Source: Ypsolopha sequella
Lineage: Eukaryota > Arthropoda > Insecta > Lepidoptera > Ypsolophidae
DNA: 64,000 nt
Direction: 5' to 3'
NCBI GenBank assembly: GCA_934047225.1
Contig: OW203985.1
Coordinates: 11,680,701-11,744,700 of the forward strand
A program made the position numbers and the translations under genes. Below are positions 4,964 to 61,254 of the stretch, piece after piece; position 1 is the first letter of the stretch; the number at the start of each line of letters is the position of its first letter. The notes under the pieces are model-generated. The model saw only the letters and a program-made list of their open reading frames with translations, was not told where the DNA came from and did not search any database.

Positions 4964-5179
4964 TGTGCGGGGCAGCCGGGCTTGCTGGAATAGCAGAGCG
5001 TACGACCAACCGCGGGGAGCGTTCTCGTACAGGATGTCGAAGGACGGACGGAGGATAGCTGGGAACTGGCGACAATAAAACTGTGCTTCTGTATTTGGTA
5101 TCCCAGTTGAGATCTGCCAGTATTGCCTCTTGTTGTAGTTAGTAGTAAGAAGGTCGGAATGTGAATGAATGACCGCTCT

Positions 5180-7398
5180 TTTTTTTTTTTTTTTTTTTTT
5201 GCGCCCAAGCAAGGCACCCTCCGGAGGTCACGATGGGAGGGAGGTGGAGAATGCTCATAGCATACCAACGTAACCGGTTACGTTGGTTATGTGGGACTCA
5301 CTGAGTGCCTACCCACTAAACTCCACCTAATTTGGTTTGGCCCGTGAGGGTCTTAAAACCTTTATCGGAAGCGACCCCCTCTGGGGAAAGGGGGCGCTAG
5401 CGGAGCCCTATAGGGGCATCCGCTGGATAAGAACACTAAGTGTTAATTTCTGGGTTGGGAGGAAGAGCTAGGCTCTGATCGTTTGGTTTGAGCCTTCAGC
5501 TCATCGAAGGCTTTCAGAAGGAGATTGAGATGTGCTGAGAGTTTGTCAGGGGGATCGGAGAGAACGTTTCTTGGTCTTCGAACCTTGTATCGGGATGTAG
5601 ACGGAGCAGTATAGGAGACTGTCTCGCGTACTAACGGATTGGGGTGTTCTTCAGAAGATTTGAAGAATGTCTCTCAGAGGGATTTCATGAATTGTTGGAG
5701 GGTGGGTAGCTCCAAATCACGATGGAGGTCTGCGTTGCGCACGTACCATGGTGCGTTGGCCGCTCTCCGACAGAATAAGTTCTGTACTATCTGCATTTTA
5801 TACAGGACTTTGGGGTTCGCATGTGCGAAGACAGGGGAAGCGTACGTTAACACAGGTCGGATGCAGACCTTGTATAGTGTTCGCTTGTTCCTGAGAGACA
5901 TTTTACTGTGCCTGCCTAACATGCTGTTAAGCCGGTACAGATAGAAGCGGGCTCTGCGCGTCACTCTATTGACGTGGGGTGCAAAAGTTAATCTCGAGTC
6001 CAGAGTGACTCCTAGGTATTTGGCAGTGCTATGCCAAGGGACAGGGGTACCTAGCATTCGGACATTGGGGTTGTCATGGTGACGGCGTTTGTAGTCAAAG
6101 CGAATCGCGGAACTTTTATCTGGGTTCACATCGATGCGCCATCTTTGAAACCATTCTCCAAGGTCATCGATAGACTTTTGGAGTTTGGCGAGGATAGTCG
6201 GGGGGTTATGTCCTTTGACATAGAGAGCAGTGTCATCTGCGAAGAGTGATAGTTGTACCCCGTTTGTGGGGACGGGAATATCGTTTGTGTATAACGAGTA
6301 GAGGATAGGGGAGAGAACTGATCCCTGGGGGACTCCAGCCCTTAGGGGGCGTGGAGAGGAGAGCAGCCCTTCATGTCTGAAGCGGAATGAGCGATCTTTG
6401 AGGTATGATGCCACCATGCGGACAAGACGGTCGGAGAGGCCTGTCTTGTGTAGTTTGAATATGAGGCCTTCATGCCAGACTTTGTCGAATGCTTTCGCAA
6501 CGTCAAAAAAAACAGCGACAGTAGGGTACCGTCTTGGATAGAATCCACTTAGTATGTATTCTACTATACGGTGGACTTGTTGGGGGCAAGAGTGCTTGGC
6601 TCTGAAGCCGAATTGATAGGGGTTGATGATCGGATCTCCATCTGTTGGGAATAAGTGGGTTTTCATGCGTGAAAGCATAACCCTCTCCAATAGTTTCCCC
6701 AATGATTTGAGGAGGCTAATTGGGCGGTGACTGGCAGGGAGGTTGAGTGGTTTTCCTGGTTTGGGTATACCTATGACTATGGCTTCTTTCCACGCTTTTG
6801 GGAAGTGGCCGAAATTAAAGCAAGCGTTAAATATGAGGGCTAGCAAGGTGAGTACTTGCTGGGGAAGGTGCTTGAGGGCTTTATTGGAGATCCCGTCCGC
6901 GCCTGGCGCTTTCTTGGGTTTTAGGCCTCTGATGAAGAAGTGGATTTCATCTTCGGTCACTGTGATGGGGTCAGACGTGAGGGGGAGGGAGTTTCGATAG
7001 TGATTCTCGTCCTCCACCTCTTTTATGTGGGAGGGGTCAGTTGGTTGGGAGCTGGGAGAGCACTGTGAGGCCATGCTATCCGCAAAGCATTCTGCTTTTT
7101 CCTCGTCCTCGAAGGCTGTTGAGCCATCGGGGCAGGTCAGAGGGGGAATGTGGGTGATTGCGTCTATCCTGAGAGCTCTCGCCATTGGATAGAACGCAAC
7201 GTGTGATGGGGATATCTTTTCCATGAGCTCACTTCTACGGGATTCATTGAGCTCAGAGAGAGCTGACTTAAGTTTGCGACTCAATTGATTCGCGGTCTGT
7301 CTGTATTCTGGGGTGGGATAGATTGCTGCTCTCCTTTGGGCTGCTCTCTTAGCTTTTAGTAGGTTGGAGATTTCCAGGGGAAGCTGTTGGGGTGGCTT
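5180..7398 (-). mobile_element. Jockey-like LINE, 5'-truncated copy 1 inside the LTR
   Basis: The poly(A) tail appears as a T run up to 5200, followed inward by GCGCCCAAGC, the 3' UTR, and ORF2 from its C-terminus back into the linker between endonuclease and RT. The 5' end is truncated at 7398, where copy 2 continues. It is flanked by a perfect 11-bp duplication ATGACCGCTCT. It is close to, but not identical with, copy 2 (13718-18571), with scattered substitutions. Confidence 0.9.
5674..7396 (-). pseudogene. Jockey-like ORF2 fragment (reverse transcriptase)
   Basis: Open from the truncation point and matching copy 2 ORF2 almost residue for residue. RT landmarks are present: APGADGISNKAL, HRPISLLKSLGKLLERV, FFDVAKAFDKVWHEGL, AGVPQGSVLSPILYSLY and the catalytic FADDTALYV. 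The frame ends early after QQFMKSL because a TCA codon of copy 2 is TGA here, removing the last C-terminal segment. With the endonuclease missing as well, this copy cannot move itself. Confidence 0.9.
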
Positions 7399-7811
7399 AT
7401 GACCGCTCTGGAGCGCGTCTATATTTATACTGTTCGCTCTCTATAGAATTTCCGTATATTTATACTGTGCGAGTGAATAAGGAAATGTGTGAGCGAGACG
7501 GACTGATTTTTATACCCCCTAACGCGGCAATACCTGACAGAGCCCAACTGCACTATTATTTATTTAATCAAACCTATTTTATTTACAATTATCGAGAATT
7601 ACTATGTATTTATATATTCTATATACTATTTTCCTATATATCTAGGTTCATTAAAACACAAGGAAGCAGAAACTTTAATCAAATCACATACAGCTATAAA
7701 ATTGAGATCAGGACACGTCTTACAAAATAATCAACTTATAACAATAAAATAAGCCTACTCTATCCTAGTATATACATATGTAGGTATCTATAGCCGCGCA
7801 CGGATAGCTCG

Positions 7812-9444
7812 CTATTCTGTCTCGCACATCTCTCCCGCCGTGCAGTGCTCGTCACTGCATTTCCTTGCCCGGGGATGCGAGACGACTTCATCTGTAGTTT
7901 CTGTAGGCAGGATCACGAGGCGCTTCACTGGCCGACGTAGGACTCCTCCTTTGGCCTTGATGTCTACGAATCGTACCGTCCCGTCCGGTCCTGGGAATGT
8001 TGCTATGACGACGCCTCGCGGCCACGTGTTGCGAGGCAGGTTGCTGTCCACCACGAGTACTATGTCACCTTCTGTGACTTGACGTCCTCTTCCTCTAGGC
8101 TCCCGCCGGTTTTGAAGCTGTGGCAGGTATTCTCGTAGCCATCTTGCCCAGAATAGATCGGCGAGACGCTGGGAGGCCCTCCAGTGGGTGCGGCCGATGA
8201 GATCCTTGTCGTCGAATGTTCCAGGAGTGGGTACTCGTGCGGAGCCGCCCAGCAGCAGGTGATTCGGTGTCAATGCCTCCTCGTCGTCGGGGTGAACGGA
8301 GACGTGAGTGAGGGGCCGGCTGTTCACTGTGTACTCGGCTTCTGCTAGCAGGGTGCTCAGGACTTCCTCTGTTGGATGGCGCTCTTGGAGAACGGCGCCT
8401 AGTGCTGTCTTTACAGATCGTACAAGACGCTCCCAGGCCCCAGCCATAAATGGTGAACTCGGCGGTAGGAAGCGCCATGTTATGGCGCGAGTGGCGGCTT
8501 CTGTCTGTGTGGCGTCCAGTGCTGCACGTCGTAGTTCGGCGTCGGCGCCATGAAAATTGGTGCCGTTATCGGACCATATCTCTGTCGGGCAGCCTCTTCT
8601 GGCTATGAAGCGACGTAGTGCGAGTATTGCTGAGTCCGTCGATAATGAGGCTGCTACTTCGAGATGTACGGCCCTCATTGTTAGGCACGTAAATAGCGCG
8701 ACATAGCGCTTATGTCGCTGTCTTCCCACTGTGACGCTGAGCGGGCCAAAATAGTCTATGCCGCAGTATGTGAAGGCTCGATGATGGTGGGCGAGGCGGC
8801 ACGAAGGCAGGTCTCCTGTCGGCGGCTCTGTCGGTATTGCTAGTCGGATGCGACATGGCAGGCAGCGTGTTACGACTTCTTTGACTGTCTATCGTAGTCG
8901 CAGTACCCAGTAGTGTTGTCGGCACTCGTTAACTGTAGTTTCGACGCCTGCGTGCAGTAACTTGCGGTGAGTGTATTCTATCCATAGTTTGGTGGCGCGG
9001 TGATTTCCGTCGAGTATAGGCGGACTCTTCTGTCTGTCTGTTACTCCCGCCGCTGCGTCGACGCGCCCCTTCAGATGTATGACGTCATTGATAAGTACCA
9101 CCGATAGTAAGCGTAGCCGGCCAGTACTAGATGTCGCTTTTCCTTTTCTCAGTGCGCGTATTTCGTCTTCGAAGGAGTCTTGCTGTATTGTTCGTACTAT
9201 CAATTTTTTGGCTTCTTGTAGTAGGTAGGCTTCTATAGGTATAAATTTTCTCTCGTTACTGTTCAGTTCTCGCTTCTTAGACGTCCGTCGTTTGTTTGCG
9301 CTTCGCTCGGTTTTCCCAGTCAGGGTCTTGCTTTTTATTTTTTCTTGTGCGACTGTAGTTTGTTCGCACTTTCCTTTGTTTGCAGATTTCTATGAATTGC
9401 AGTACTCTTGCTGTAGTTCTCAGTAGACGTTCCCATTTTGAAAA
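7812..9444 (-). pseudogene. BEL/Pao integrase region, broken
   Basis: The 3' part of pol, downstream of the long polyprotein frame. A TGA (9442-9444) ends that frame although homologous sequence continues (FSKWERLLRTTARVL). A frameshift lies near 9290 and another in-frame TAG near 8890. Recognisable parts are the zinc-binding HHCC region (HRKLLHAG ... CLPC) and an integrase core with DYFGP (first Asp), SDNGTNFHG (second Asp) and AGAWERLVRSVK (Glu). A basic C-terminal region follows. The last 305 codons (7812-8729) are open and stop inside the 3' LTR. The product would insert cDNA into the genome but is inactivated here. Confidence 0.88.
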
Positions 9445-12400
9445 TCAACTGACGTCTGGAATAATACTTGTTGTTCGTGGTGTCGCCTGTGATGCGCAAC
9501 ATACGACCTTTTTCTCTTCTCCCGTAATCTCGGGCTGAGTAGGTATTTCTGTAGGCCACTCGGAGGGGTTTTCTCTCAGGAAGGACGGGCCGCTGTACCA
9601 CTGATGTTGGCTGTCGAAAGAGGTCGGGACTTCTCTTGTCGCATCGTCCGCTACATTGAATTTTGTAGGTATCCATCGCCACTCGCTTGTTAATGTTGTC
9701 TCCTCTATGGCGGCGACTCTATGTGCGACGTAAGGCTTGTATGATCTCGCGCCGTTTCTTATCCACGCGAGAACTGTCTTGCTGTCTGACCAGTACGTCT
9801 TGGACGTGGGTTTCTGTCTGTGTTCTTCTAACACTGTAGCGGCCATTCTGCTGCCCAGGACGGCGGCTTGTAGCTCAAGACGTGGCACGGAGATGACTTT
9901 GAGTGAAGCCACACGAGCCTTTGCTGTGATGAGTGACACGTGTACGCTGCCGTCGGGTGCCTCCGCCCGCCAGTATAGTGCGGCGGCGTATGCAGTCGTG
10001 CACACGACAAAGACGTGTAGTTGCAGTGACTGTGATTCGCTGTACTGTAGATAACATCTGGGTATGCTGACGTCGCACAGGCTTTTCAGGTGACTCATCC
10101 ACGTAGCCCACTGTGTAGCGAGGTCTTCTGGTATTTTGGTGTCCCAGTCTGTCCCTCTGCGCCATACTTCTTGTAGTATCTTTTTGGCCTGGATGGTGAC
10201 AGGTGAAGCCAGGCCCAATGGATCGTAGATTGACATGACGATTTTGAGAGCCTCTCGTTTCGTCGGCGCCTGTTCTGTGAGCAATGCTGGAGGTAGGCGG
10301 GCTAAGTCCAAGTTGAAGCTGAGCTCATCTGATTGTGGTTTCCAGATGAGCCCCAGCACCTTCTCTGTCTTGGTACCGTCGTCGAGCTTTACTGGCTGTG
10401 TAGTCGTGCTTCTGTTTTCTGTTAGGGCTTCGAGCGTCTTAGATGAGTTGGACGCCCAGCCTCGTAGGTCGAAGTTGCCCTTGCTATGGATCTCTCGTAC
10501 TTGCTTGGATACTTCTATGGCTTCTTCTTCTGTTCTGAAGCTGTCTAGGTAGTCGTCCATGTAGTGATTCTCTGTTATCGCTCTGACTGCCGTAGGATAC
10601 GTATCTCTGTATTTTTCAGCATTTCTGTTCTTTACGTATATCGCAATTGTCGGTGAGCTGGTCGCGCCGAATATAAGCGAAGTCATTCTGTATTCATCTG
10701 GTGGGCCGTCTCGTCGCTCGTCTCTCCACAGGTATCGTAGCGCGTCTCTGTCTTCGCACCGCACGCCAATTCTCATAAACATTTCGGCTATGTCTGCTGT
10801 TACGGCGACTCGGTGTTGACGGAACCTCATAAGAACCCCCGGCAGTGACTTGAGTAGGTCCGGGCCGGTGAGCAGATGGCTGTTGAGGCAGTGTCCCTTT
10901 GTAGTAGCCGCTGCGTCGTGAACTATTCTCATCTTGTCCGGTTTCATAGGATTGAAGACCGGAAAATGCGGCAGGTACCATGTGCAATCTCGTGTTTTTT
11001 CTGTGGGTGCCAGCTCTGCGTATCCTTTCTGTATAAGCGCCTTCATCTGTTCACCATATTTTTGTTTTAGGTGAGCGTCTCTGTCGATGCGTTTCTCCGT
11101 CGAAATTAAGCGCCGTAGAGCGTTGTCGTAGTTGCTGGGTAACTTGACATCTGCGTGCTTCCATAGTAGAGGAGTTTCATAGCGACCATTCTCTGTCTCT
11201 TTCGTGCACGCTTCTAAGAGTTGGAGCGCGCGCCTTTCTGGGTCGCTTGCGGGCTTCTTAGGTTCGATGTCTATCGAGTCCAGCGCGAAGTAATGCTTCA
11301 ATTGTTCATCCATCCTTTGTTCTGTAGTTTCTATCTGTTCTGTTCTGTCGGCCAGGTGGTGAACGAAGTGTACTCGGCTGCCTATAGTGCGCGTGTCGGC
11401 TCCGTGTAGGACCCAGCCCAGTGGTGTGCGCGACGCGACGAGTTGATGTCGGTTGCCTCTCCTTGTCTCTGTTGCTAGGAGGAGATGCCAGTTGTCTTGA
11501 CCGATAATGATTGTAGGTTTGGCGTCTTCATATACGAGATGTTTTTCTATGTCGCGCAGATGCTTGCAGCCCCATACGTGTTGCTCTTCTATTGTTTGCG
11601 ACGATAGTTTGAGGTCTTCTATAGTGCGCGCTTGTATCTTCATTGGTCGGTCTTGCCCTTGGATAGTGAGGGTGACGCGACGTGACGAGCCCGATAGTAT
11701 CTTGGAGTCTGATATGGTTTCGAGGTGAAGTGGCTCGCACGGTCCCGTAGCGCCAATCTGTTGTGCGACGTGCTCGTCGATCAAGGTGACGGTAGAACCG
11801 TCGTCCAGGAGCGCGTGCGTGTGTAGTTGTCCGCTGGGGCCGGAGACTCGTACTGGTATAATTTTCAGGTATGCGTATCTGTTGCGGCTGGTGTGAGTAG
11901 ATGTTACTATCTCCTTATTTTCTGTCTTTGCCTGTTCTTGCTTCGTTATGAAGTGTAGCATAGGATGATGACTACGTTCGCAGCCGTCCTTGTCGCACTT
12001 GCGCCTCGGGCATCTGTGTGTATTGTTCCTGTAGCGCAGGCATCTGTAGCATAGATGGTTCTTCTTTGCCATGTTCCATCTTTCGTCGGCGGTAGCTAGT
12101 TTGAAGGACTCGCATTCTATCTCTTTGTGATCCTTTCTCTCGCAGATAGTGCACGGGTACTTGTTTGTTCGCTCTTCTCTATTATTTGCGGCGTGGGCGC
12201 GTTGTAATTTTCTGTAGTTCTGTGGCGCCGCGCCGTCCTCTATGATTTGCTCGGGTGGTGTGAATTTGCTGCATCTGTCTGCTTCTCTGTCCATGAAGTT
12301 GCTAAATTGAAGTAGGTCGGAGTCTGTATTCTGTTGTTCTGCAGTGTAGTCGAACCAGCGATAGCGGAGTGCCGGCGTGAGTTTTTCTATGACGTTCTTC

Positions 12401-13446
12401 ATGGTCTCTGGGCTGGCTAAGTAGTGCGCCTTCCCGAGGTACCGTATTGTAGCGACGCAGTTCTTCGTCTTGTTAGCAAACAGGCAGATGTCACGTGGAG
12501 AGTCTGTAGTTCGTGGCATGCTGCGCAGTTTCTCTAGCTCGGCGAGGGCGATCGCGTCGGGACGTCCGAATCTCGCTTCTAGGGCACTCATGATGTCCTC
12601 TGGTGGCGTGTTGACAATTAGCAGGCTGGTAACGGCTTCCTTGGCTTTTCCTTTCAGTGCTCGGCGTAGTCTCGCTGTATTTTCGGCCGCAGAATAGGCT
12701 TTGGAAGACTCGAAGAATACAGACTTAAAGGCTAGCCATTCGTTGTGAGAGCCGTTGAATGGTGGCAGCTCTCCGAAGTATCTATGCGGCGTGACTGTGA
12801 TAGGTGTAGATCTCGCAGCGGCGGCGATGGCTTGCGCTAGTTCGGACAGGTCTAACTTCCCGGTCTGTGGTAGGTGCGTCGGAGCAGCGACGTGGGGCGG
12901 GGAAGGGACTATTTCCTCCTTGCTGAAGTTATATGCAGGAATTCGCTCTTCGATGATGGTAGCTGGCTTCTGTGTTTGCGGGACAGGCGCTGCTCGTGGT
13001 GCCTCTATTGCGGACTTCGCTGCTCTATGGTTACGAACGTTCTCCAGCGTCAGGTCTCCTTTGTTTTCTGGCGCTGATGCAGCTCGGTCTCGCTCCTGTC
13101 TATGTATCCACGTAGCGGTGCGTCGGAGTGTCTCGTTTTCTGTTGATGAAACGCTGTTGGTGTCGTCATCATCTGATTCGGCAGCTATCTTCTTCTTCTG
13201 TGCTATGGCGAGCTCCAACTTCAGCTTGGCTATTTCTTCGTCGGCTTTGGCTAGTCGATATGACTTGTTCGAACGTGACGATCTTCTACTCTTCTGTTTG
13301 GACGGCAGATTTTCTCTATGGTTATTGTTCTGCTGTTCTGACGGCGACAACGGAGGATGTTCATGATGGACTGGGAGATCTCTCTGTTGTACTTCCTCTT
13401 CTTGATTCTTCGGTTCCTTGGCTATTTGTGAACGCGTAGTCGGCAT
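9445..13446 (-). CDS. BEL/Pao Gag-protease-RT-RNase H polyprotein (C-terminally truncated by a stop)
   Basis: 1333 codons starting at ATG 13446, shortly after the 5' LTR and primer-binding site. Order: basic, Ser/Gln-rich coiled-coil Gag start; a DUF1759-like Gag core (about residues 220-400); zinc knuckles CTICERKDH, CYRCLRYRN and CDKDGCERSHHPMLH; an aspartic protease with ALLDDGSTVTLID; RT with VTADIAEMFMRIGV and catalytic YMDDYLDS; and RNase H (LHVFVVCTTAYAAALYW, VPRLELQAAVL, YWSDSKTVLAWI). The first RNase H Asp appears replaced in HVFVVCT. The frame ends at TGA 9442-9444 before the integrase. This is the usual BEL/Pao order with no envelope gene. Confidence 0.9.
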   Translation of the reverse strand: MPTTRSQIAKEPKNQEEEVQQRDLPVHHEHPPLSPSEQQNNNHRENLPSKQKSRRSSRSNKSYRLAKADEEIAKLKLELAIAQKKKIAAESDDDDTNSVSSTENETLRRTATWIHRQERDRAASAPENKGDLTLENVRNHRAAKSAIEAPRAAPVPQTQKPATIIEERIPAYNFSKEEIVPSPPHVAAPTHLPQTGKLDLSELAQAIAAAARSTPITVTPHRYFGELPPFNGSHNEWLAFKSVFFESSKAYSAAENTARLRRALKGKAKEAVTSLLIVNTPPEDIMSALEARFGRPDAIALAELEKLRSMPRTTDSPRDICLFANKTKNCVATIRYLGKAHYLASPETMKNVIEKLTPALRYRWFDYTAEQQNTDSDLLQFSNFMDREADRCSKFTPPEQIIEDGAAPQNYRKLQRAHAANNREERTNKYPCTICERKDHKEIECESFKLATADERWNMAKKNHLCYRCLRYRNNTHRCPRRKCDKDGCERSHHPMLHFITKQEQAKTENKEIVTSTHTSRNRYAYLKIIPVRVSGPSGQLHTHALLDDGSTVTLIDEHVAQQIGATGPCEPLHLETISDSKILSGSSRRVTLTIQGQDRPMKIQARTIEDLKLSSQTIEEQHVWGCKHLRDIEKHLVYEDAKPTIIIGQDNWHLLLATETRRGNRHQLVASRTPLGWVLHGADTRTIGSRVHFVHHLADRTEQIETTEQRMDEQLKHYFALDSIDIEPKKPASDPERRALQLLEACTKETENGRYETPLLWKHADVKLPSNYDNALRRLISTEKRIDRDAHLKQKYGEQMKALIQKGYAELAPTEKTRDCTWYLPHFPVFNPMKPDKMRIVHDAAATTKGHCLNSHLLTGPDLLKSLPGVLMRFRQHRVAVTADIAEMFMRIGVRCEDRDALRYLWRDERRDGPPDEYRMTSLIFGATSSPTIAIYVKNRNAEKYRDTYPTAVRAITENHYMDDYLDSFRTEEEAIEVSKQVREIHSKGNFDLRGWASNSSKTLEALTENRSTTTQPVKLDDGTKTEKVLGLIWKPQSDELSFNLDLARLPPALLTEQAPTKREALKIVMSIYDPLGLASPVTIQAKKILQEVWRRGTDWDTKIPEDLATQWATWMSHLKSLCDVSIPRCYLQYSESQSLQLHVFVVCTTAYAAALYWRAEAPDGSVHVSLITAKARVASLKVISVPRLELQAAVLGSRMAATVLEEHRQKPTSKTYWSDSKTVLAWIRNGARSYKPYVAHRVAAIEETTLTSEWRWIPTKFNVADDATREVPTSFDSQHQWYSGPSFLRENPSEWPTEIPTQPEITGEEKKVVCCASQATPRTTSIIPDVS

Positions 13447-13712
13447 GATGCTGTTTGATATCCGGCTTCTCTATGGGCAATGTCCGGCTCGAAGATCCAA
13501 TGTGCGGGGCAGCCGGGCTTGCTGGAATAGCAGAGCGTACGACCAACCGCGGGGAGCGTTCTCGTACTGAATCGTCGAAGGACGGACGGAGGATAACTGG
13601 GAATTGGCGACAATAAAACTGTGCTTTTGTATTTGGTATCCCAGTTGAGATCTGCCAGTATTGCCTCTTGTTGTAGTTAGTAGTAAGAAGGTCGGAATGT
13701 GAATGAATGACC

Positions 13713-13743
<31 letters not shown>

Positions 13744-13985
13744 GCGCCCAAGCAAGGCACCCTCCGGAGGTCACGGTGGGAGGGAGGTGGAGAATGCTCA
13801 TAGCATACCAACGTAACCGGTTACGTTGGTTATGTGGGACTCACTGAGTGCCTACCCACTAAACTCCACCTAATTTGGTTTGGCCCGTGAGGGTCTTAAA
13901 ACCTTTATCTGAAGCGACCCCCTCTGGGGAAAGGGGGCGCTAGCGGAGCCCTATAGGGGCATCCGCTGGATAAGAACACTAAGTG

Positions 13986-16844: not shown

Positions 16845-18370
16845 TATAATGACGTGAGAAGGTGAGAGTGTTCTACGAGCGCAAGAAGGCGCTGTTGGGG
16901 GGTGCGTGAAGCGCGCAGCTTATTAGCTAATGACGAAATCTCGTGTACATTAATGTTCGAGATTACATCGTGGATAAGTCTCATATCATCAGCCAGGGAG
17001 GGCGTTAAGCCGTCTGATTGTGACTGAGACGTGACGGGGGAGGCGACGGGTGGTGTGTGTGGGGGGGTCTTTTTCGGGGCCCAGGCCTTGGTCCGGGGAG
17101 GGGCTGGCTGGGGGGTTGCCACTAGTGGCTTTCCCGGAAGGCTGGGGAAATTATTGGAGTTGATTGGTGGGGGTAAAAGGGGTGGGGGTTTGGTTGCCCT
17201 GAGTTTAGGCTTGGGTAGGGTGGAGCGTGGGGCACGGGGGCAGCCTCTGTAATTGGCTTTATGTCCAACCTGGTTACAGAGAACGCAGGCTGGAGGGGTA
17301 AGGTCTTCTAGGGGCCTTGGGCACTCTTTGGTGCTGTGGGGGTCGAGGCACTTAACGCACCTTGGGGGGGCTGTGCAGTTTGCAGCTGCGTGGCCATAGA
17401 GTTGGCAGCGACGGCATTGGCCGGGGTACCCGCGGCGGTTGGGTTTTTCTACTTTGATGCAAGAGAGCCCGCAGATTGTGCGGTCCTCTTTAAAGAGTGC
17501 CTTAGCGGCCGGGGAGTTGGTCATAATGACCAGGGCCAGGGGGAATCTCTTCCCTGAGCTGCTGTGCATCTTGTGCACAGCTTCAACAGGGAACCCCTGA
17601 TTTTTGAGATCATCCATGATCTCGTCATTGGATACCTCGAACGGCATCCCCCGAAGGACAGCGCGGACTTTGCGCTCTTCTTCGAGGGCGTGCGTGTGGT
17701 AGGGCCAGTCTTTGAGAAGTAGGAGCCTGATGAGACTCCTGAAGTCATTAATTGTAGGGGTCATGATCTTAATAGCCACGCCGGTATTGGTGGCTTGGGT
17801 GTAGGGGATATTTTTCTCGCTGCAAAGCTTGGAGAGAGCCGACCATTTGGTCTTGTCTCTCAACAAGACGGCGGGGGGGGTTTCCTTCTTTGCGAGGCGA
17901 GGCTCGCAGCGGGAGGCTACCTTAGGGGCCGTCTGGGTGGCCGGGGGAGGGCCAGTCTGGGTGGCCGGGGTGGGGGCAGGGGTTTCCTCTGTGGGGGAGA
18001 GGGGAGGGGAGGCTTTCCCCTTCTTTACCCTCTTTTTACGACTTTCAACCCTGGTGAAAGGGTTGATCTCGTCGTTGTTGATGGAACCTGTGAGGGTTCC
18101 ATCATTGGACATTTTGTCCGAAGAGTTTGAACTGTTTGAACTCGAGGAGATCGAGGGGGGGGCGGACCTCTTACGGTCAGAATTGGTGGACGAGTTGTCC
18201 GAAAACTCCATGCTCTGGGATGGAGAGGCAGGGGATTCTGTCTCGAACCTTTGGGGGTTCGTGACCTCCGAGGAAGCCTTGATGAGGCTTGCAAAGGCAT
18301 TCTCGTTGAAGACGAGGCCTTGGCTTTCGAAAAAGTTTTTTGTGAACTCTATCCATGGACCGTAATTCAT
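16844..18370 (-). CDS. Jockey-like LINE ORF1: Gag-like protein with three zinc knuckles
   Basis: 508 aa from ATG 18370 (MNYGPWIEF). The open frame extends further upstream to 18664, but that part reads the 15-bp repeats as VTPSR and then LTR sequence, so I prefer the internal ATG. A Ser-rich N-terminal half with basic RKKRVKKGK is followed by an RNA-binding-like region (RAVLRGMPFEVSNDEIMDDL) and three CCHC knuckles starting CRRCQLYGH, CVKCLDPHS and CVLCNQVGH (about residues 330-400). A Pro-rich tail follows. Such proteins coat element RNA. The stop TAA overlaps the ORF2 ATG. Confidence 0.9.
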   Translation of the reverse strand: MNYGPWIEFTKNFFESQGLVFNENAFASLIKASSEVTNPQRFETESPASPSQSMEFSDNSSTNSDRKRSAPPSISSSSNSSNSSDKMSNDGTLTGSINNDEINPFTRVESRKKRVKKGKASPPLSPTEETPAPTPATQTGPPPATQTAPKVASRCEPRLAKKETPPAVLLRDKTKWSALSKLCSEKNIPYTQATNTGVAIKIMTPTINDFRSLIRLLLLKDWPYHTHALEEERKVRAVLRGMPFEVSNDEIMDDLKNQGFPVEAVHKMHSSSGKRFPLALVIMTNSPAAKALFKEDRTICGLSCIKVEKPNRRGYPGQCRRCQLYGHAAANCTAPPRCVKCLDPHSTKECPRPLEDLTPPACVLCNQVGHKANYRGCPRAPRSTLPKPKLRATKPPPLLPPPINSNNFPSLPGKPLVATPQPAPPRTKAWAPKKTPPHTPPVASPVTSQSQSDGLTPSLADDMRLIHDVISNINVHEISSLANKLRASRTPQQRLLALVEHSHLLTSL

Positions 18371-18445
18371 GGCTAGGAGTGGGGGTAGAGGTGAAGGCAA
18401 AAGTGAAAGTAGGTGAAAAGTGGACGGGGGTGAAATTGGACTTGG

Positions 18446-27526: not shown

Positions 27527-27528
27527 TA

Positions 27529-50821: not shown

Positions 50822-51183
50822 TGTATGATAAATATGCCTAATTCTACCTTGTTTTTCACAAACTTTGAAGTGATCCTTTTGACGGGTAGTTTTGAGTGCG
50901 TGCGATCAGCGCCCTCCGCGGACAAACTTTAGTCTGCGACGAAAGCCTGCGCCGTGCGCATCGATATCTGTTTTCGTGATCAATACCGTAAACCCAAGCA
51001 TCAGTGCCAATCATCTCATCACATTCTGGAGAATCTTCATACCCAACCCCAGCTGGAGGAGTCATACTGGAGATCTGCAAGGTGAGTGAGTGACATTGTG
51101 GAATTTGGTGTAGACTCATTATAACCCTTTATCATTCCGATATTACTATTTCCAAAACAATACTTTGGAGTAGATATCGAACA
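50822..51183 (+). repeat. BEL/Pao 5' LTR (young element)
   Basis: 362 bp, starts TGTATGATAAATATGCC, ends AGATATCGAACA. It gives the same short shadow frames as the 3' LTR, showing base-level agreement. No clear TATA box. Confidence 0.92.
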
Positions 51184-51432
51184 TATTTTTGGCCTCCGAG
51201 CCGATGGTCCTATGGAATTTAGTCTATTTAAACCCTTTTAAGTGCTTAAAAGTACTTATCTTTTATAATTTGAGTGTAGGAATCATAATTCCTATTCAAA
51301 ATCCCAAAAACCTTTATCATCATCAAGTTTCTACATAAATTAGTCTATCGAAAACGTGTTTATCGTCCCTTTGTTTGACGCCACATTGGATAGTTCTCAT
51401 CGTTACGTTAACTTTAAGAAGTAAACAACAAA

Positions 51433-53043
51433 ATGGCGCCTAAAGATCCAAACGTAGGTGCAACAAGAGCATTGCAAAGATTAATAGCATTGAAGCAAAG
51501 ATATTTTCAACAAATAACTTCAATTCATGATCTCGGTAAAAAGATTACTTCATATCCTGAACAGACCGACATGTTTTTGCTCCAAGCTGGAGAAATAGAC
51601 GAGATCCGAAAATCTTATAATGACATTATTTTGGACATTTATGAAAACGAATGCATTTTGGACGAAAATGCGTCATTAAATACGATTGACATGAGTAACT
51701 TTGATGAAATATACTTTCAAATAAAACTTTTAAAATCAAAATTACATGTTAGTGGTGACAGTTTCTTTAAAATGGAACAAACTAGCTTAAAACCGCGTCT
51801 TCGCCTGCCGAAAATTGATTTAGTAAAATTTGACGGAAAAATTGAAGAATTTCCAACTTTTTATGAAACGTTTTGCTCCCTGGTACATAACCAGACTGAC
51901 ATCGTAAAAATAGACAAGTTTCACTATTTGATTTCTTGCACTTCCGGGCCTGCTCGAAGTCTTGTTACAAGTCTTCCTTTGACATCAGACAATTATGACT
52001 TAGTGTGGAATTCTCTGCTAAAAAGGTATCATGACAACAGAGCGCTAGGTGGTCTTTATCTAAAGAAAATGTTGAACTTTGTACCGTTAACTACCGAGTC
52101 AGCTGGAAATTTAAATATATTTCTTGAAACGTTTGAAAATTCTTATAAAGCTATACAGTCAATAAAAATCAATGATTTGGCGGACTATGTGTTTTGTCAC
52201 ATTGCCTTAAGGGTTTTAGATCCTCAAAGTAGAAGGTTATTTGAACAAACCCTTGAGAAAAATGGTGAACCTACATTCTCCAAAATCATTGCTTTTGTGG
52301 AAAAACATATTAATGTTTTAAATCATTCGTCGCCTGAAAGTGTGCAACAGGATCCGCCTAAAATTAATAATAGAAATTACAATAATAGAACTTATAATAA
52401 AAATGCTAATAAAAGCAATTTTTCACACGCGTCTTCTTCTTCAGCGCGTCAAAAGTTTTCATGTGCACATTGCACAGAAAATCACATGATTTTCCGTTGT
52501 GAATCTTTCCGAAAAATGAACACTTTACAGCGCATTGATCGCGCAAATGCGCTAAATTTATGTCATAACTGTTTAAAAACGAATCATTCTACCAATGACT
52601 GCAAAAGTGAATTTAGGTGTTTCATTTGCCAAAAACCTCATCACGCATTGTTACATATGGAACAGAATACTAATCAGTCAATCGGAAATGAAACTGCATC
52701 CGCGTTTCCCGTGACTGCGAGCGTCTTGCAGTCGCAGCCACCGCTGCAGGTACATGAGAGTGATTCCGCGCGCTCAGCTGATAATGACGTCACCGTGAAC
52801 CTGAATTGTCACGCGTCGACGCAGAATTATACCGTTATCTTAGGGACAGCGATTGTAAATGTTAAAGATGCGTTCGGAAATGAACAACCATGTCGAATAT
52901 TAATTGACTCTGCGGCACAATCGAATTTCTTGGCACTTGATTGTTTAAAACGCTTAGGATTGCCTCAAACAAAATGTCCTTTGAATATTTTTGGATTAGG
53001 TGGCGTTCAATTAAAAATAACGGCATGGTTACTTGTGAAATAA
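51433..53043 (+). CDS. BEL/Pao Gag and protease start
   Basis: 536 codons from ATG 51433 (MAPKDPNVGATRAL). Gag core with PRLRLPKIDLVKFDGKIEEF and FYETFCSLVHN (DUF1759-like, about 120-270). A Ser/Asn-rich linker leads to zinc knuckles CAHCTENHMIFRCESF, CHNCLKTNHSTNDC and CFICQKPHHALLH (about 345-415). The aspartic protease begins with CRILIDSAAQSNFLA, Asp-Ser-Ala in place of the usual Asp-Ser-Gly. The frame ends inside the protease; the continuation lies in the -1 frame (overlap 52941-53043). Supplies virion core protein and protease. Confidence 0.9.
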   Translation: MAPKDPNVGATRALQRLIALKQRYFQQITSIHDLGKKITSYPEQTDMFLLQAGEIDEIRKSYNDIILDIYENECILDENASLNTIDMSNFDEIYFQIKLLKSKLHVSGDSFFKMEQTSLKPRLRLPKIDLVKFDGKIEEFPTFYETFCSLVHNQTDIVKIDKFHYLISCTSGPARSLVTSLPLTSDNYDLVWNSLLKRYHDNRALGGLYLKKMLNFVPLTTESAGNLNIFLETFENSYKAIQSIKINDLADYVFCHIALRVLDPQSRRLFEQTLEKNGEPTFSKIIAFVEKHINVLNHSSPESVQQDPPKINNRNYNNRTYNKNANKSNFSHASSSSARQKFSCAHCTENHMIFRCESFRKMNTLQRIDRANALNLCHNCLKTNHSTNDCKSEFRCFICQKPHHALLHMEQNTNQSIGNETASAFPVTASVLQSQPPLQVHESDSARSADNDVTVNLNCHASTQNYTVILGTAIVNVKDAFGNEQPCRILIDSAAQSNFLALDCLKRLGLPQTKCPLNIFGLGGVQLKITAWLLVK

Positions 53044-56000
53044 AACCTCGCAATAGTAGCGAGTGTAATTTCAAAATTGACGCAGTAGTTTTGCCAAAAA
53101 TCACTTCGGACCTTCCGACAGTTCAAATTCCGGAAAAGATTTTACAAAATTATAAAGGTCTTAATTTAGCTGACCCATACTTTTACAAACCATCACCAAT
53201 TGACATAATTTTAGCTGGTGATGTATTTCCTCACATTTATGATGGAAAAAAGATTATCTTCGCTGATTGTATTCCTCCAGCATTGAGTAGCATTTTTGGT
53301 TACGTTATAACTGGCAAGTTGGAGGTCGAACAATCCAGTAATGTAATGAGGGTAGCGTCTACACATCATTGCTCAGCGTCGTACGCTGTTGAAACGTGTC
53401 TCGAAGACCGTTTAAAATCCTTTTGGGAGGTGGAATCTGCGCCGTGCGAAATTCCACAAGATCCACTGGATGAAATCGCGGAAAAAATATTTGTAGAAAA
53501 TCATTATCGTGATTCATTTGGTAAATACGTTTCACCGTTGTTACTTCAACCTTCAGGCGCGTCGCTTGGGGATTCTTACCAAACTGCATTGAAACGTTTT
53601 CTGCAGTTAGAACGCCGTCTTGTAAAAACGCCTGATATACATAAGGCATATGTTGACTTCATGAACGAGTATGAGTCATTAGGGCACATGGAAGTGTATT
53701 CTGGTTCTGAAAAATCTAAATACGTCATACCACACCATGCTGTTGTGCGATTATCTAGTGCTACTACGCCTGTCCGTGCCGTTTTTGACGGATCGGCAAA
53801 AACAGATGGTAATTCGGTTAGTCTAAATTGTCATCTTTTGACGGGTAAAAAACTACACCAAGATATACATAAAATTATTTCAAATTTTCGTTTGTATGAT
53901 GTGTGTTTTACTGCTGACATAACAAAATTCTACCGTCAAGTCTGGATACGCCCGTGTGAACGTAGTTATCAACATATTTTATGGCGTGACTCACCTTCTA
54001 AACCATTGAAGACTTATGAGTTAAAAACAAATACTTACGGTTTGCGCAGTGCACCTTTCATTGCCGTGCGTACGTTACAACAGCTGGCTCACGATGAGCA
54101 TGATTCTTTCCCGCGGGCCGCGCCTGTTGTTATGGAAGGATTTTACATCGATGACTTATTGTGGTCAACACAAACGCTGGCTGAAGCCTGTACGTTACAG
54201 GATGAACTCAACCTCCTATTGAATAGAGGTGGTTTTGAGTTGAGAAAATGGTCAAGTAACCATAATGAGTTACTTACCCGTGTACAAACACAACAAACAT
54301 CTGACATTAGCTTTCAAGATGATACCTTATCGTCAGCTATTAAGGTGCTTGGTCTTAAATACATCCCAAATCAAGATTGTTTTGCATTTAATTACAATCT
54401 AGCTGATGCAATTTCCACAAAACGATCGGTACTGAAACTTTTAGCCAGCATTTTCGATCCAATTGGATTTATTGCTCCCTGTACTTTTGTAGCAAAATGC
54501 ATCATGCAAGATCTGTGGAAACTTAGCCTTGACTGGGATGAACAATTACCATCAGATGTCCGTGACAAGTGGCAGAGGTTCATCACTAGTTTGCCCGTAT
54601 TATCTGAACTACGCATCGAGCGTCACCTTCTTATAACCGGTTTTAAAGAAATACAGCTAATTGCATTCTGTGATGGAAGTTCTCGTGGATATGCAAGTTG
54701 TCTTTTTCTCCGGAGTACAGACTCGATTGGCAATGTTAAGGTTAGACTAATAATGAGCAAATCTAAAGTGGCTTCAATTAAACCACAATCAATTCCGAGA
54801 ATTGAGCTGATGGCGGCCGTGCTGCTTTCGAAACTAGTAAAAAGTGTCGTACAGAACCTTAACAATTTAAATTTACAAATCATCGCCTTTAGCGACTCAA
54901 GTGTTGTTCTGTCATGGCTACAAACACCACCCTATAAATTAAAAACTTTTGTGTCAAGTCGCGTGGCTGATATCATTAGTGTGGTTCCGCCAAACAAATG
55001 GTATCATGTAACTAGCAACAACAATGCTGCAGATGTTGCGTCTCGGGGTGTTATGCCTGAGCAACTAGTAGAGATTGCTACAACTTGGTTACACGGACCA
55101 GAGTGGTTATATTATAACCGCGAAAAATGGCCAGTTAGCACATTTTTCATTAAAAATTCTGATAATGTCCCAGAATTAAAATCAAATGTCGACACTTTTT
55201 GTCTGACATCACATTCTGATATGCCAAAGGATAATACAAATAAATGCTTAGAAGCAAAAAATGACTTGGAACCTTTATGTCTGAAGTTTTCTTCTTTTGA
55301 CAAAATTCAGAGGGTGTTGGCTTGGTGCCTTCGATTCATAAAAAACTCGAAACTTAATTCAGAGAATCGTAGTGTAGGACCTTTGAAAACTTCAGAGCTT
55401 CAAAATGCTCACGATTCCATTATAAAATGTGTTCAAGAGAACCACTTTTCATCTGAAATTGAGATGCTGAAGAATGGAAAGTTTGTTTCATCCCTTAGAA
55501 AATGTTCTCCTTTTTTTGACACCCGTGGTTTTCTCAGGGTGGGGGGTAGAATCTCGCAATCGACCCTACCATTTAGAACAAAACACCCACTTTTGCTCCC
55601 AAAAAAGTGTCATATTACAAAACTGATAATTGAATATTTTCATAAAAAATATTTACATGTTGGACCTCGAACCTTGCAAGGTATATTATGCAAATCCTAT
55701 TGGATTCTTTGTGCTCGCAGTATAATCCGATCCGTACTTTCAAAATGTTTAATCTGCTTTAAATGCAGACCTGTTTCCTTACAACCAGCTATGGGTGACC
55801 TTCCAACAACGCGCTTACAACCTGAAAAGGTATTCAATCATGTGGGTTGTGACCTAGGTGGGCCTTTCTACATAAAGGAAAGTCTCCGAAGGAACTCTAA
55901 AGTACATAAGGTATACCTTTGTTTGTTTGTATGCTTTTCAACTAAAGCAGTTCACTTAGAAGTACTGACTGATCTTACAGCTGACTGTTTTCTCGCTACG

Positions 56001-56747
56001 CTAGATAGGTTTGTAGCTCGTAGAGGATTAATGACTTGTCTATACTCTGACTGTGCTACCAACTTTAAAGCTTCTAGTAAACACTTAAAAGAAGTTTACC
56101 AATTTCTTTCAAAGGAATCTGTCCGTGATGAAATCTTAACTGGCTGTACTTTGCGCCAAATAAATTGGACATTCAATGTTCCGACGGGTTCAAATCTGGC
56201 AGGACTGTGGGAGGCCGGTATAAAGTCTGCCAAGTACCACCTGATTCATGCAATAGGTGACAAATCTTTGACTTTTGAAGAAATAACGACTTTATTTTGT
56301 AAAATAGAGGCCGTTATGAACTCTCGTCCATTATGCAGTTTGTCAGACTCAGCTGATGAGTTTGAAGTTTTAACCGCAGGACACTTCCTGATTGGACAAA
56401 ATCTTCTGGCCGTTCCAGAATTTAATTTGGACGACTTGAGTATCAACAGATTATCTCGTTGGCAATATATTCAGAAATCGACCCAAATATTTTGGAAAAA
56501 ATGGTCTAATGATTATATTCATACTCTCCAACAAAGACAAAAATGGTTTACAGTGACGCCTAACATAAAAGTAAATGATCTTTGTTTAATCAAATCTGAC
56601 TTTACCAAATCTTTGCAATGGCCTGTTGGACGTGTAGAATGTGTTCATCCTGGTGCAGATAACATAGTACGCGTCGTAACAGTGAGAACACCAAAAGGTC
56701 TCTACCGTAGACCAGTTAATAAGTTATGTCCTCTTCCAAATCAATAA
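52941..56747 (+). CDS. BEL/Pao Pol: protease end, reverse transcriptase, RNase H, integrase
   Basis: 1268 codons; the true junction with Gag is near 53010-53020, so the first ATG (52941) is probably not a start. After VVLPKITSDLP come RT motifs VRAVFDGSAKTDGNSVSLN, CFTADITKFYRQVWI, TYGLRSAPFIAVRTL and the catalytic YIDDLLWS. RNase H follows (IAFCDGSSRGYASCLFL, IPRIELMAAVLLSKLV, FSDSSVVLSWL). Integrase has a zinc finger (HKKYLHVG ... CLICFKC), core Asp in CDLGGPF, Asp in YSDCATNFKAS and Glu in LAGLWEAGIKSAKYHL. A basic C-terminus precedes the stop. No envelope gene. Confidence 0.92.
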   Translation: MFKTLRIASNKMSFEYFWIRWRSIKNNGMVTCEIKPRNSSECNFKIDAVVLPKITSDLPTVQIPEKILQNYKGLNLADPYFYKPSPIDIILAGDVFPHIYDGKKIIFADCIPPALSSIFGYVITGKLEVEQSSNVMRVASTHHCSASYAVETCLEDRLKSFWEVESAPCEIPQDPLDEIAEKIFVENHYRDSFGKYVSPLLLQPSGASLGDSYQTALKRFLQLERRLVKTPDIHKAYVDFMNEYESLGHMEVYSGSEKSKYVIPHHAVVRLSSATTPVRAVFDGSAKTDGNSVSLNCHLLTGKKLHQDIHKIISNFRLYDVCFTADITKFYRQVWIRPCERSYQHILWRDSPSKPLKTYELKTNTYGLRSAPFIAVRTLQQLAHDEHDSFPRAAPVVMEGFYIDDLLWSTQTLAEACTLQDELNLLLNRGGFELRKWSSNHNELLTRVQTQQTSDISFQDDTLSSAIKVLGLKYIPNQDCFAFNYNLADAISTKRSVLKLLASIFDPIGFIAPCTFVAKCIMQDLWKLSLDWDEQLPSDVRDKWQRFITSLPVLSELRIERHLLITGFKEIQLIAFCDGSSRGYASCLFLRSTDSIGNVKVRLIMSKSKVASIKPQSIPRIELMAAVLLSKLVKSVVQNLNNLNLQIIAFSDSSVVLSWLQTPPYKLKTFVSSRVADIISVVPPNKWYHVTSNNNAADVASRGVMPEQLVEIATTWLHGPEWLYYNREKWPVSTFFIKNSDNVPELKSNVDTFCLTSHSDMPKDNTNKCLEAKNDLEPLCLKFSSFDKIQRVLAWCLRFIKNSKLNSENRSVGPLKTSELQNAHDSIIKCVQENHFSSEIEMLKNGKFVSSLRKCSPFFDTRGFLRVGGRISQSTLPFRTKHPLLLPKKCHITKLIIEYFHKKYLHVGPRTLQGILCKSYWILCARSIIRSVLSKCLICFKCRPVSLQPAMGDLPTTRLQPEKVFNHVGCDLGGPFYIKESLRRNSKVHKVYLCLFVCFSTKAVHLEVLTDLTADCFLATLDRFVARRGLMTCLYSDCATNFKASSKHLKEVYQFLSKESVRDEILTGCTLRQINWTFNVPTGSNLAGLWEAGIKSAKYHLIHAIGDKSLTFEEITTLFCKIEAVMNSRPLCSLSDSADEFEVLTAGHFLIGQNLLAVPEFNLDDLSINRLSRWQYIQKSTQIFWKKWSNDYIHTLQQRQKWFTVTPNIKVNDLCLIKSDFTKSLQWPVGRVECVHPGADNIVRVVTVRTPKGLYRRPVNKLCPLPNQ

Positions 56748-56975
56748 AACTAATTCATAATTAGTTCTAATTTAAGATAGTTTAATTTATGTAGAGTCTA
56801 AGATTTGTTTTATTCTTTTTTATTTTACTTAGATCCCTGTTAAAGTTCATAGTCTTAATTTCATACTCCTAGTAGAGTCTTCATTATGTAGAGTCTATTA
56901 TTTTGTATAGAGTCTGTAGAGACTTCATATTATTATTATTTTTTAGAAATCATACATGATTTCGGTGAGGGGTTA
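56748..56975 (+). other. BEL/Pao 3' untranslated region
   Basis: AT-rich, with three AGAGTCT-type direct repeats (about 56,795-56,915) and ending in the G-rich polypurine tract just before the LTR. Confidence 0.5.
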
Positions 56976-57337
56976 TGTATGATAAATATGCCTAATTCTA
57001 CCTTGTTTTTCACAAACTTTGAAGTGATCCTTTTGACGGGTAGTTTTGAGTGCGTGCGATCAGCGCCCTCCGCGGACAAACTTTAGTCTGCGACGAAAGC
57101 CTGCGCCGTGCGCATCGATATCTGTTTTCGTGATCAATACCGTAAACCCAAGCATCAGTGCCAATCATCTCATCACATTCTGGAGAATCTTCATACCCAA
57201 CCCCAGCTGGAGGAGTCATACTGGAGATCTGCAAGGTGAGTGAGTGACATTGTGGAATTTGGTGTAGACTCATTATAACCCTTTATCATTCCGATATTAC
57301 TATTTCCAAAACAATACTTTGGAGTAGATATCGAACA
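56976..57337 (+). repeat. BEL/Pao 3' LTR (young element)
   Basis: Same 362-bp sequence as 50822-51183 as far as read, followed by the GTGGG duplication. Confidence 0.92.
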
Positions 57338-58939: not shown

Positions 58940-59358
58940 TGTAATAACCAACGCCTAGCCTAGCCAAGCCAAGCCAAGCCAAGCCAAGCCAAGCCAAGCC
59001 AAGCCAAGCCAAGCCAAGCCAAGCCAAGCCAAGCCAAGCCAAGCCATGCCAGGCCATGCCAAGCCATGCCAAGCCATGCCAAGCCAAGCCAAGCCAAGCC
59101 AAGCCAAGCCAAGCCAAGCTAAGCCATAGCCGTGCGTCATGCTGACGTCACGCCGCCTCGAGCCGCGCGCGCCGCGCAAGCGCCTACTGGAGCCGCAGTG
59201 GAGGGGGAAGCTACGCCTGCCTATATAAACGTGCACTGAGTTGATTTTGGAGGCATTTTTGCTAAACTAAATTGTAAGGCGTTACTCTGCCCGTTGACTG
59301 AGCGAAAATATAAAATAATTAAACATTATCTATACTTTTATTTGAGTCCTTTGTTACG
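58940..59358 (+). repeat. Gypsy-type 3' LTR, copy C, with CCAAG array
   Basis: 419 bp, TGTAAT...GTTACG, so both terminal hexamers carry one change relative to copy B. The CCAAG array (about 58953-59125) has a different pattern of CCATG variants from copy B. TATATAA is at 59222-59228. Confidence 0.9.
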
Positions 59359-59361
59359 ATA

Positions 59362-59661: not shown

Positions 59662-59990
59662 TTGTTAAAATATTTTGATCCGTTTCTCTATCCGTCAAAA
59701 TTCTTACTCGGCATGTTGGAATCTAGGCGTAGTAGTTGTGAGTTAATTTTCGCACTGAAGATTCTGAGAGGAGAAATCGACTGTCCTGAGTTGCTTACTA
59801 GGCTGCTTTGGCTGTTTGTACCGGCTAATTACGTGCAATGGCGATCGCGTCGGGAGCGCAAGTTGTTTGCCGTGCCCACCAGCCGCACGCACGCTCACGC
59901 TTATTGACCAATGTGTAAAATGACGACAGCTCTCAATGAGTCCGAACCGTCTGCTGACGTGTTCTTCGATAATAAAAGTCAATTAGTTTG
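59662..59990 (+). pseudogene. LINE ORF2 C-terminal fragment
   Basis: Frame with SRRSSCELIFALKILRGEID then CPELLTRLLWLFVP and KLFAVPTSRTHAHAY, stopping at 59907. The spacing of RR...LKIL..ID.PELL...FVP...F..P..RT matches the tail of Jockey-type ORF2 proteins. The expected final RTNY-like segment is altered. AT-rich sequence with AATA repeats follows. Confidence 0.5.
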
Positions 59991-60771
59991 TAAGTTAATT
60001 AGTTTTTTTCTTTTGGCTTAAAGTTATTTTAAATTTTATGTTTGTTTTATGTTAATTTAAATAATAAATCAAATAATTATTGTAATTGGGTTCACCCGTA
60101 TTAATTATAATAAATAAATAAATTGTTATGGCTGGCTTCAGCTCTGCAAGTTGTTTCTAAGAACCAGGATCTCAATTTCCAATACTTTTGCCATCGAATA
60201 CTGTTCAAGTCAGTAAAAGGTCAAAAGTGTAAAACAAAAGTATGTAGTTCAAAATTATAAAACTAGATGGTGCTGACGTAATCTACATCGCGATATCGTT
60301 TTCTTTATTATTAAATGTTATATGGTGAAGACAAGTTCCGATCAAGTTTTGGTATGCAACAATGTGTGTTTTAGTATAACGTAAGCAGTGTCCCCTACAA
60401 ATACAATGGTGGATCGTGTTATTAAAAAAATCTTATTTGGCCTCATCACGTACCCTTCGCACGGTAAAATACCAGAATCCAAGATTGAGTACCCAAAGAG
60501 ATTTCCTTTCCTGAAGTTGCACACATAACAATAGCCCTGTTAGATCATTCGGTCAAGTGCGCAGGGGCTAAGTATGCATTCCGCGCACTCACGCGCATGT
60601 CTGCACTTTAGTTTATGTTCCGTAGTAGATTTTTCTGTCCTATTGATGAAATCGCAGATAGAGAAGTACGTAGTAAAACCACCAAAATTACTGAAATGTG
60701 AAGCAGAAATTGGTCTATTTACATGTATTTCTTGTACATTAACTTACAACTTATGGATATAATAATATATT
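59991..60771. other. Intergenic stretch, no gene
   Basis: Only short frames without domain character; an AATA-rich patch near 60,060-60,125 probably is a LINE tail. Confidence 0.4.
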
Positions 60772-61254
60772 TGTGCGGGGCAGCCGGGCTTGCTGGAATA
60801 GCAGAGCGTACGACCAACCGCGGGGAGCGTTCTCGTACAGGATCGTCGAAGGACGGACGGAGGATAACTGGGAACAGGCGACAATAAAACTGTGTTTTTG
60901 TATTTGGTATCCCAGTTGAGATCTGCCAGTATTGCCTCTTGTTGTAGTTAGTAGTAAGAAGGTCGGAATGTGAATGAATGACCGCTCTTTCTTTTTTTTT
61001 TTTTTTTTGCGCCCAAGCAAGGCACCCTCCGGAGGTCACGGTGGGAGGGAGGTGGAGAATGCTCATAGCATACCAACGTAACCGGTTACGTTGGTTATGT
61101 GGGACTCACTGAGTGCCTACCCACTAAACTCCACCTAATTTGGTTTGGCCCTTAAGGGTCTTAAAACCTTTATCGGAAGCGACCCCCTCTGGGGAAAGGG
61201 GGCGCTAAAATGACCGCTCTGGAGCGCGTCTATATTTATACTATTCGCTCTCTC
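60772..61254 (-). repeat. Partial LTR of the first BEL/Pao family, with LINE insertion
   Basis: 60772-60988 matches 4964-5179 and 13501-13717, and 61210-61254 matches 7399-7443, so this is the same LTR interrupted at the same base. Matching stops at 61254 (TTCGCTCTCT), where another LINE begins; the remaining ~385 bp of the LTR are not seen in the window. Confidence 0.85.
60989..61209 (-). mobile_element. Jockey-like LINE, copy 3, strongly 5'-truncated
   Basis: Only poly(A) (T/C run to 61008) and about 200 bp of 3' UTR remain, closely matching copies 1 and 2. It is flanked by ATGACCGCTCT at 60978-60988 and 61210-61220, the same duplication as copy 1. Confidence 0.9.

Follow-up and report, generated by a model that had tools for sequence, protein, structure and literature searches.

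Long interspersed nuclear elements (LINEs) of the R1 clade (R1, TRAS, SART) and the Tx1 clade combine an apurinic/apyrimidinic (APE) type endonuclease with a reverse transcriptase (RT) and insert at one fixed base within a sequence present in many copies. Tx1L reportedly sits in the DNA transposon Tx1D. The Drosophila elements HeT-A, TART and TAHRE are telomere elements of the Jockey clade, which are guided to chromosome ends by Gag. According to a review (PMC5911963), other retroelements lie at or near genes of RNA polymerase III (Pol III), namely TRE5 and NLTR-A of social amoebae, both of the L1 clade, and yeast Ty3; TRE5 and Ty3 contact TFIIIB, TRE5 through its ORF1 protein, Ty3 integrates at the Pol III start, and NLTR-A inserts 2-6 bp from tRNA genes. 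Here we analyzed a stretch of 64,000 nucleotides from the lepidopteran Ypsolopha sequella (contig OW203985.1, positions 11,680,701 to 11,744,700), hereafter called the window. It contains three copies of a Jockey-like LINE inserted in long terminal repeats (LTRs) of the BEL/Pao type. Like the R1 and Tx1 elements, this LINE has an APE-type endonuclease and an RT and occupies a fixed base of a repeated sequence.

Three insertions at one base of an LTR

The original prediction, made from the letters of the window, had claimed that the poly(A) of each of the three LINE copies abuts one and the same base of a BEL/Pao LTR, and all three junctions bore this out. The joins were located at 5179/5180, 13717/13718 and 60988/60989, each directly 3' of ATGACCGCTCT on the plus strand. 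Copies 1 and 3 had, as predicted, a perfect 11-bp duplication flanking both ends and different 5' truncations, and copy 2 was near full length (Table 1). At the 5' junction of copy 3 we observed two extra bases (61208-61209). Copy 2 had no target-site duplication; 69 bp of the LTR were lost there, and the LTR restarted at the equivalent of position 7479.

We searched the window for the 11-mer, allowing at most one mismatch, and detected five occurrences. All were exact and all were at LINE junctions (two at copy 1, two at copy 3 and one at copy 2), with 0.54 expected by chance. In blastn searches of the window (E ≤ 1e-3), the matches to pieces of the LTR were confined to three places and those to the LINE to the same three, short self-matches within the LINE aside. 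Three of three LTRs carried the LINE and three of three LINE copies were within LTRs. Under a naive uniform model, with the LTR-C fragment counted as whole and for a finding picked because it looked striking, three insertions would all fall in LTR copies, and there at a single LTR base, with a chance of approximately 1e-10; given that all three are in LTRs, the chance of one common base is approximately 2.5e-6.

Table 1. Coordinates of the LINE copies, their target sequences and the BEL/Pao LTRs in the window.
Feature	Position	Strand	Basis
LINE copy 1, 5'-truncated (~2.2 kb), poly(A) 5180-5200	5180-7398	-	
LINE copy 2, near full length	13718-18571	-	
LINE copy 3, 5'-truncated to ~0.2 kb	60989-61207	-	
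ORF1 of copy 2, 508 aa, ATG at 18370	16844-18370	-	PRE_C2HC and zinc-knuckle motifs
ORF2 of copy 2, 952 aa, APE-type endonuclease and RT, RNase H domain not found	13986-16844	-	
GC-rich 15-bp tandem repeat, 8.3 copies, 5' end of copy 2	18444-18568	-	
Target-site duplication ATGACCGCTCT, copy 1, poly(A) side	5169-5179	+	
Target-site duplication ATGACCGCTCT, copy 1, 5' side	7399-7409	+	
Target sequence ATGACCGCTCT, copy 2, poly(A) junction, single copy	13707-13717	+	
Target-site duplication, copy 3, poly(A) side	60978-60988	+	
Target-site duplication, copy 3, 5' side	61210-61220	+	
BEL/Pao provirus with both LTRs, inside ORF of another LINE	4964-18925	-	Domains, LTR ends, duplication, open empty-site frame
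BEL target-site duplication TATAC, left	4959-4963	.	
BEL target-site duplication TATAC, right	18926-18930	.	
LTR-A, 3' LTR in BEL sense, split by LINE copy 1	4964-7828	-	
LTR-B, 5' LTR, split by LINE copy 2, 69 bp missing at LINE 5' junction	13501-18925	-	
LTR-C fragment, split by LINE copy 3	60772-61253	-	
Predicted core promoter of LTR-A at LINE 5' junction	7399-7429	-	Pattern match and shuffles

We consider, with a rough probability of 0.68, that target-primed reverse transcription brings this Jockey-like APE-type LINE into a single position of the BEL/Pao LTR. The scars are those which target-primed reverse transcription leaves: one base used three times, a poly(A), and an 11-bp duplication at two of the copies. 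The endonuclease would nick the plus strand after ATGACCGCTCT (after CGCTCT), and the 3' end so released would serve as primer for reverse transcription, beginning at the poly(A) tail. The duplication, which is itself observed as a scar, would then result from a second cut at a distance of 11 bp. Most likely, approximately 10-20 bp around the cut would be recognized, mainly by sequence, by the endonuclease or by another part of ORF2 or ORF1.

The cut was also predicted to fall in the middle of a small inverted repeat. The position was correct, as the cut point is the centre of CGCTCTGGAGCG, an imperfect 12-bp inverted repeat, but the repeat is weak; 5 of its 6 pairs match, and approximately one site in 200 would do so by chance. 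As a determinant of the site we rejected it as too weak to weigh, and it may be incidental.

Separate origin of the copies

The interrupted retrotransposon was identified as BEL/Pao by its Pao-type peptidase, its TG...CA LTRs (ends TGTG...CACA) and the 5-bp duplication TATAC. Pfam domains found in the provirus were Peptidase_A17 (E 2.8e-45), DUF1759 and DUF5641, and RVT_1 and rve were seen below the Pfam cut-offs. The provirus itself cuts another LINE (window 3418-4963 and 18931-20069). When the flanks of this host LINE were rejoined at the empty site, the frame was open for 894 aa, and therefore the host LINE was probably intact not long before.

We observed that copies 1 and 2 occupy the two LTRs of this one provirus, which the original prediction had not mentioned. 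The LTRs of one provirus are identical at integration. Because these LTRs began identical, and the two LINE copies differ in length and in their 5' ends, copies 1 and 2 entered separately after the integration of BEL. Aligned over 217 columns on the poly(A) side of the insertion, LTR-A and LTR-B today show 5 mismatches and 1 gap; over 355 on the opposite side they show 2 mismatches and one 4-base gap. For LTR-C, the match to these two is limited to 60772-60988 and 61210-61253. On the poly(A) side LTR-C has 4-5 mismatches to LTR-A or LTR-B, no more than those two have to each other.

We compared the LINE copies by blastn and found 34 mismatches in 2198 bp, ungapped, between copies 1 and 2, and 3 mismatches in 199 between copies 3 and 2. 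In the ORF2 part, copies 1 and 2 showed 21 synonymous and 11 nonsynonymous differences, one of which is an in-frame stop in copy 1. The mismatches between these copies were evenly spread (of 5000 random placements, 4910 gave an identical run at least as long as the observed maximum of 164 bp), and hence there was no sign of a conversion tract.

An alternative would be a single insertion multiplied by segmental duplication, by gene conversion between LTRs or by copying of the LTR by BEL. The presence of LTR-A and LTR-B in one provirus makes LTR conversion possible. Against this, copies 1 and 3 each have their own 11-bp duplication, the three 5' ends differ, copy 2 reaches approximately 2.6 kb past copy 1, and the flanks beyond the LTR copies do not align. 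A LINE-bearing LTR copied by BEL would yield two identical LTRs, and an origin by duplication or conversion would need deletions that by chance rebuilt perfect 11-bp duplications; the even spread of differences between copies 1 and 2 also speaks against it. We find this alternative extremely improbable, and gene conversion and duplication were rejected on the basis of the junctions and the spread of differences. The claim of three separate events was thus upheld by the different 5' ends, the duplications of copies 1 and 3, the even differences and the hits in both LTRs of one provirus, and all three copies in the window (3/3) count as separate insertions into a repeated target at a single base.

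Coding capacity and placement of the LINE

In copy 2 both ORF1 and ORF2 were open, and the TAA of ORF1 overlapped the ATG of ORF2 (TAATG). The GC-rich 15-bp repeats at its 5' end are perhaps promoter units. The poly(A) 3' end and the 5' truncations, which are a trait of the Jockey clade, were present. ORF1 gave a match to PRE_C2HC (E 2.4e-8), and three knuckle-like CCHC motifs were seen by eye in the translation. A Pfam search of ORF2 at E ≤ 0.001 detected Exo_endo_phos, Exo_endo_phos_2 and RVT_1, and neither RNase H nor any other domain at this threshold.

We aligned the window ORF2 protein with 18 of the 60 proteins found by the ORF2 search. Endonuclease residues E47, D148, N150, D223 and H224 and RT residues A688-D690, which we take to be catalytic, were invariant in these 19 sequences. 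The predicted structure of ORF2 (mean predicted local distance difference test, pLDDT, 83.3; predicted template modeling score, pTM, 0.63) had human L1 ORF2p as its best match. The endonuclease part of the model matched the L1 and TRAS1 endonuclease structures among the matches listed with target-normalised template modeling (TM) scores of 0.72-0.76; by sequence, the endonuclease alone reached TRAS1 only at E 0.41.

The best of the 60 ORF2 matches had 71% identity; the best one with an organism name came from Parnassius mnemosyne (70%), and P0002 of this species had 70-71%. The matches which carry an organism name are presumably all from Lepidoptera. The ORF1 search gave 66 matches, many of them named in the source as X-element nucleic-acid-binding protein. 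The Jockey/BS/X-element-like LINEs of P. mnemosyne (P0002) and Eumeta japonica have the same kinds of ORF1 and ORF2 as the window LINE. We built a 62-row ORF2/RT tree from 59 of the 60 ORF2 matches (P0048 was left out) and 3 window rows, by a quick method with support from the Shimodaira-Hasegawa-like approximate likelihood ratio test (SH-aLRT) only. The window LINE and 7 others formed an 8-row group (support 100), with P0002 and P0007 as the sister group of the window LINE. The sister of this 8-row group was a set of 10 rows, several of them carrying the source label BS or jockey (support 97 for the 18 rows), and rows bearing RNase H fell elsewhere. The LINE likely belongs to the Jockey clade, as judged from a tree free of curated reference LINEs, and the predicted Jockey-like identity agreed with the type of ORF1, the domain set and the nearest labelled relatives.

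Searches with ORF2 alone against viral and genome contigs, and with two 22-base patterns against viral contigs, found no relative. The 19-sequence alignment had no match in the viral contigs. In the genome contigs it matched 6 loci (27-35% identity) in records titled bacterial or symbiont, which are probably animal DNA carried along and are too distant to use. A PRE_C2HC protein of the same LINE kind is listed under Pseudomonas aeruginosa (P0195, 17 member sequences) and is probably insect DNA.

Specificity of the site

The results argue for strong site targeting within the window. For a Jockey-type LINE, such an LTR is probably a new target. No LTR was found as a fixed target of any LINE, Jockey-like or other, in the open-access literature searched. 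Three separate insertions at one base, near a predicted transcription start of the LTR, suggest a new type of address for a LINE that seeks out its site.

Three points weigh against this reading. There are three copies in one 64-kb stretch, which was chosen as striking, and two of them share one provirus. Copy 2 is without a duplication, and therefore only its poly(A) junction supports the site. Finally, P0007 of P. mnemosyne, a relative of the LINE with 74% identity over 626 residues, is located inside a histone H3 gene. In this protein, which stands for 3 clustered member sequences from a single contig, approximately the first 100 residues of H3 are joined in frame to a 5'-truncated LINE relative. 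The lineage of P0007 is therefore not confined to LTRs. The prediction is supported as far as the site-targeted pattern in the window goes. The LTR may be the specific niche of the family, but the H3 copy speaks against strict LTR specificity in this sister lineage.

We looked for further fusions of H3 and LINE by domain columns and found no second one among the best 120 of 742 proteins (E ≤ 1e-10). Within the same best 120, P0178 of Eurosta solidaginis had histone and RT domains with 34% coverage, the same as plain H3 rows. Targeting of histone H3 by the family is not claimed, as a second fusion was not found among these 120 of 742.

The H3 copy raises the question of a hot spot. A LINE with broad insertion and mild preference might find a very good site in the LTR sequence or its inverted repeat; many LINEs have mild preferences, and the cut lies in the centre of the imperfect 12-bp repeat. 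However, blastn detected no LINE copy elsewhere in the window, and mild preference alone is unlikely to give the same base of 635 three times. We regard a hot spot of a loosely specific LINE as unlikely, and targeting of the LTR base as the better description of the three insertions.

A predicted promoter at the site

We analyzed the LTR for core promoter motifs, a context on which the original prediction was silent. In the 635-bp LTR, read in the BEL sense, TATAAATA is at 400, and TCATTC occurs twice, with the A at 429 and the A at 433. Apart from the TATA at 400, no TATA (consensus TATAWA) of the LTR has TCAKTY partners at a spacing of 27-33. In LTR-A, TATAAATA runs from 7429 downward and the predicted +1 is at 7400, inside the duplication. 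The 11-bp duplication corresponds to -9 to +2 if the start is at 429, and ends just upstream if it is at 433. With a TATAWA/TCAKTY consensus picked post hoc, when the site had already been seen, 55 of 5000 dinucleotide shuffles had any TATA/initiator pair and 0 of 5000 had one with the A inside the 11-bp duplication. On both strands of the whole window there were 5 such pairs, one of which is that of LTR-C.

The LINE has the same orientation as BEL and begins, in copies 1 and 3, approximately 30 nt downstream of the LTR TATA box. In copy 3 the TATA/initiator pair is intact directly before the LINE, and in copy 1 LINE sequence replaces the second half of the initiator. In copy 2 the TATA of the site is lost and the LINE starts 36 nt after the beginning of another TATAAAAA; this may well be chance, given the four TATAAA in the LTR.

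The site could be found by way of the promoter, if the RNA polymerase II (Pol II) initiation complex or the open bubble of the LTR led the LINE there, and not, or not only, the DNA sequence. The interval from -9 to +2 is close to where promoter DNA melts. That the duplication covers this interval of the nearer predicted start, as no shuffle did, is consistent with such guidance, and so are the shared orientation of LINE and BEL and the start of copy 2 behind another TATAAAAA with the site TATA lost. The review PMC5911963 gives a Pol III precedent in the ORF1 protein of TRE5 with TFIIIB and in Ty3 at the Pol III start. However, the consensus was chosen once the site was known, the start is predicted only, and the second initiator match (A at 433) is outside the duplication. 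Moreover, the base-exact joins in all three copies favour recognition of sequence, a similar upstream TATA/AGAGCG block of LTR-A was not hit, and the H3 copy of the relative is within a coding region. We think it improbable that the promoter guides the insertion, and retain recognition mainly by sequence.

In the favoured reading, a LINE hit should damage the LTR promoter, and a full-length LINE could be transcribed from that promoter. The target is mobile and, being part of a retrotransposon, is outside host genes. It is quite doubtful that the LINE parasitises the BEL LTR promoter, aimed at the Pol II start, where it might cut along the borders of the open bubble. If it did, each hit would impair that LTR promoter for BEL and give a full-length LINE a ready TATA approximately 30 bases upstream.

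Further sequences in the window

A second BEL/Pao element was present on the plus strand (window ~50822-57337). Its LTR stretches are identical (362 bp at 100%), and the element is therefore recent. Its pol is approximately 30% identical to that of the first BEL over 642 residues, and the 11-mer ATGACCGCTCT is absent from it. An ORF with an RT domain (window 61561-62676) begins approximately 0.3 kb past LTR-C, where the LTR match has ended.

At 23231-34934 we detected a Polinton/Maverick-like set with a Pox_A32-like ATPase, a chromodomain integrase, a phospholipase A2-like protein, a double-jelly-roll capsid protein and a large ORF whose match to Endonuclease_7 narrowly missed the Pfam cut-off. 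Three arrays built from a 5-bp unit (GGCTT/CCAAG) were located at 1026-1159, 48835-49013 and 58948-59131, within repeats of approximately 330 bp; two have the same orientation and one the opposite. A tandem repeat of approximately 158 bp, in nearly three copies, was found at 38576-39050.

Comparison with known elements

In contrast to the R1 and Tx1 clades, the window LINE is Jockey-like in its ORF1, its domains and its nearest labelled relatives, and its target is an LTR. If recognition of the LTR base is true, it would make available a natural endonuclease of the APE type that recognizes a new site, and would allow a direct test of whether LINEs can use the Pol II start as a landmark. With HeT-A, TART and TAHRE the window LINE shares a Jockey-like character and, within the window, a confined location, but it is found at an internal base, with an 11-bp duplication.

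The position near a predicted start also invites comparison with the elements at Pol III genes. If the LINE were aimed at the LTR start, it would do with Pol II what Ty3 and TRE elements do with Pol III, and its mobile target would keep renewing the sites. Unlike in TRE5, NLTR-A and Ty3, the promoter of the LTR is of the Pol II type, as predicted only, and the insertions are exact to one base.

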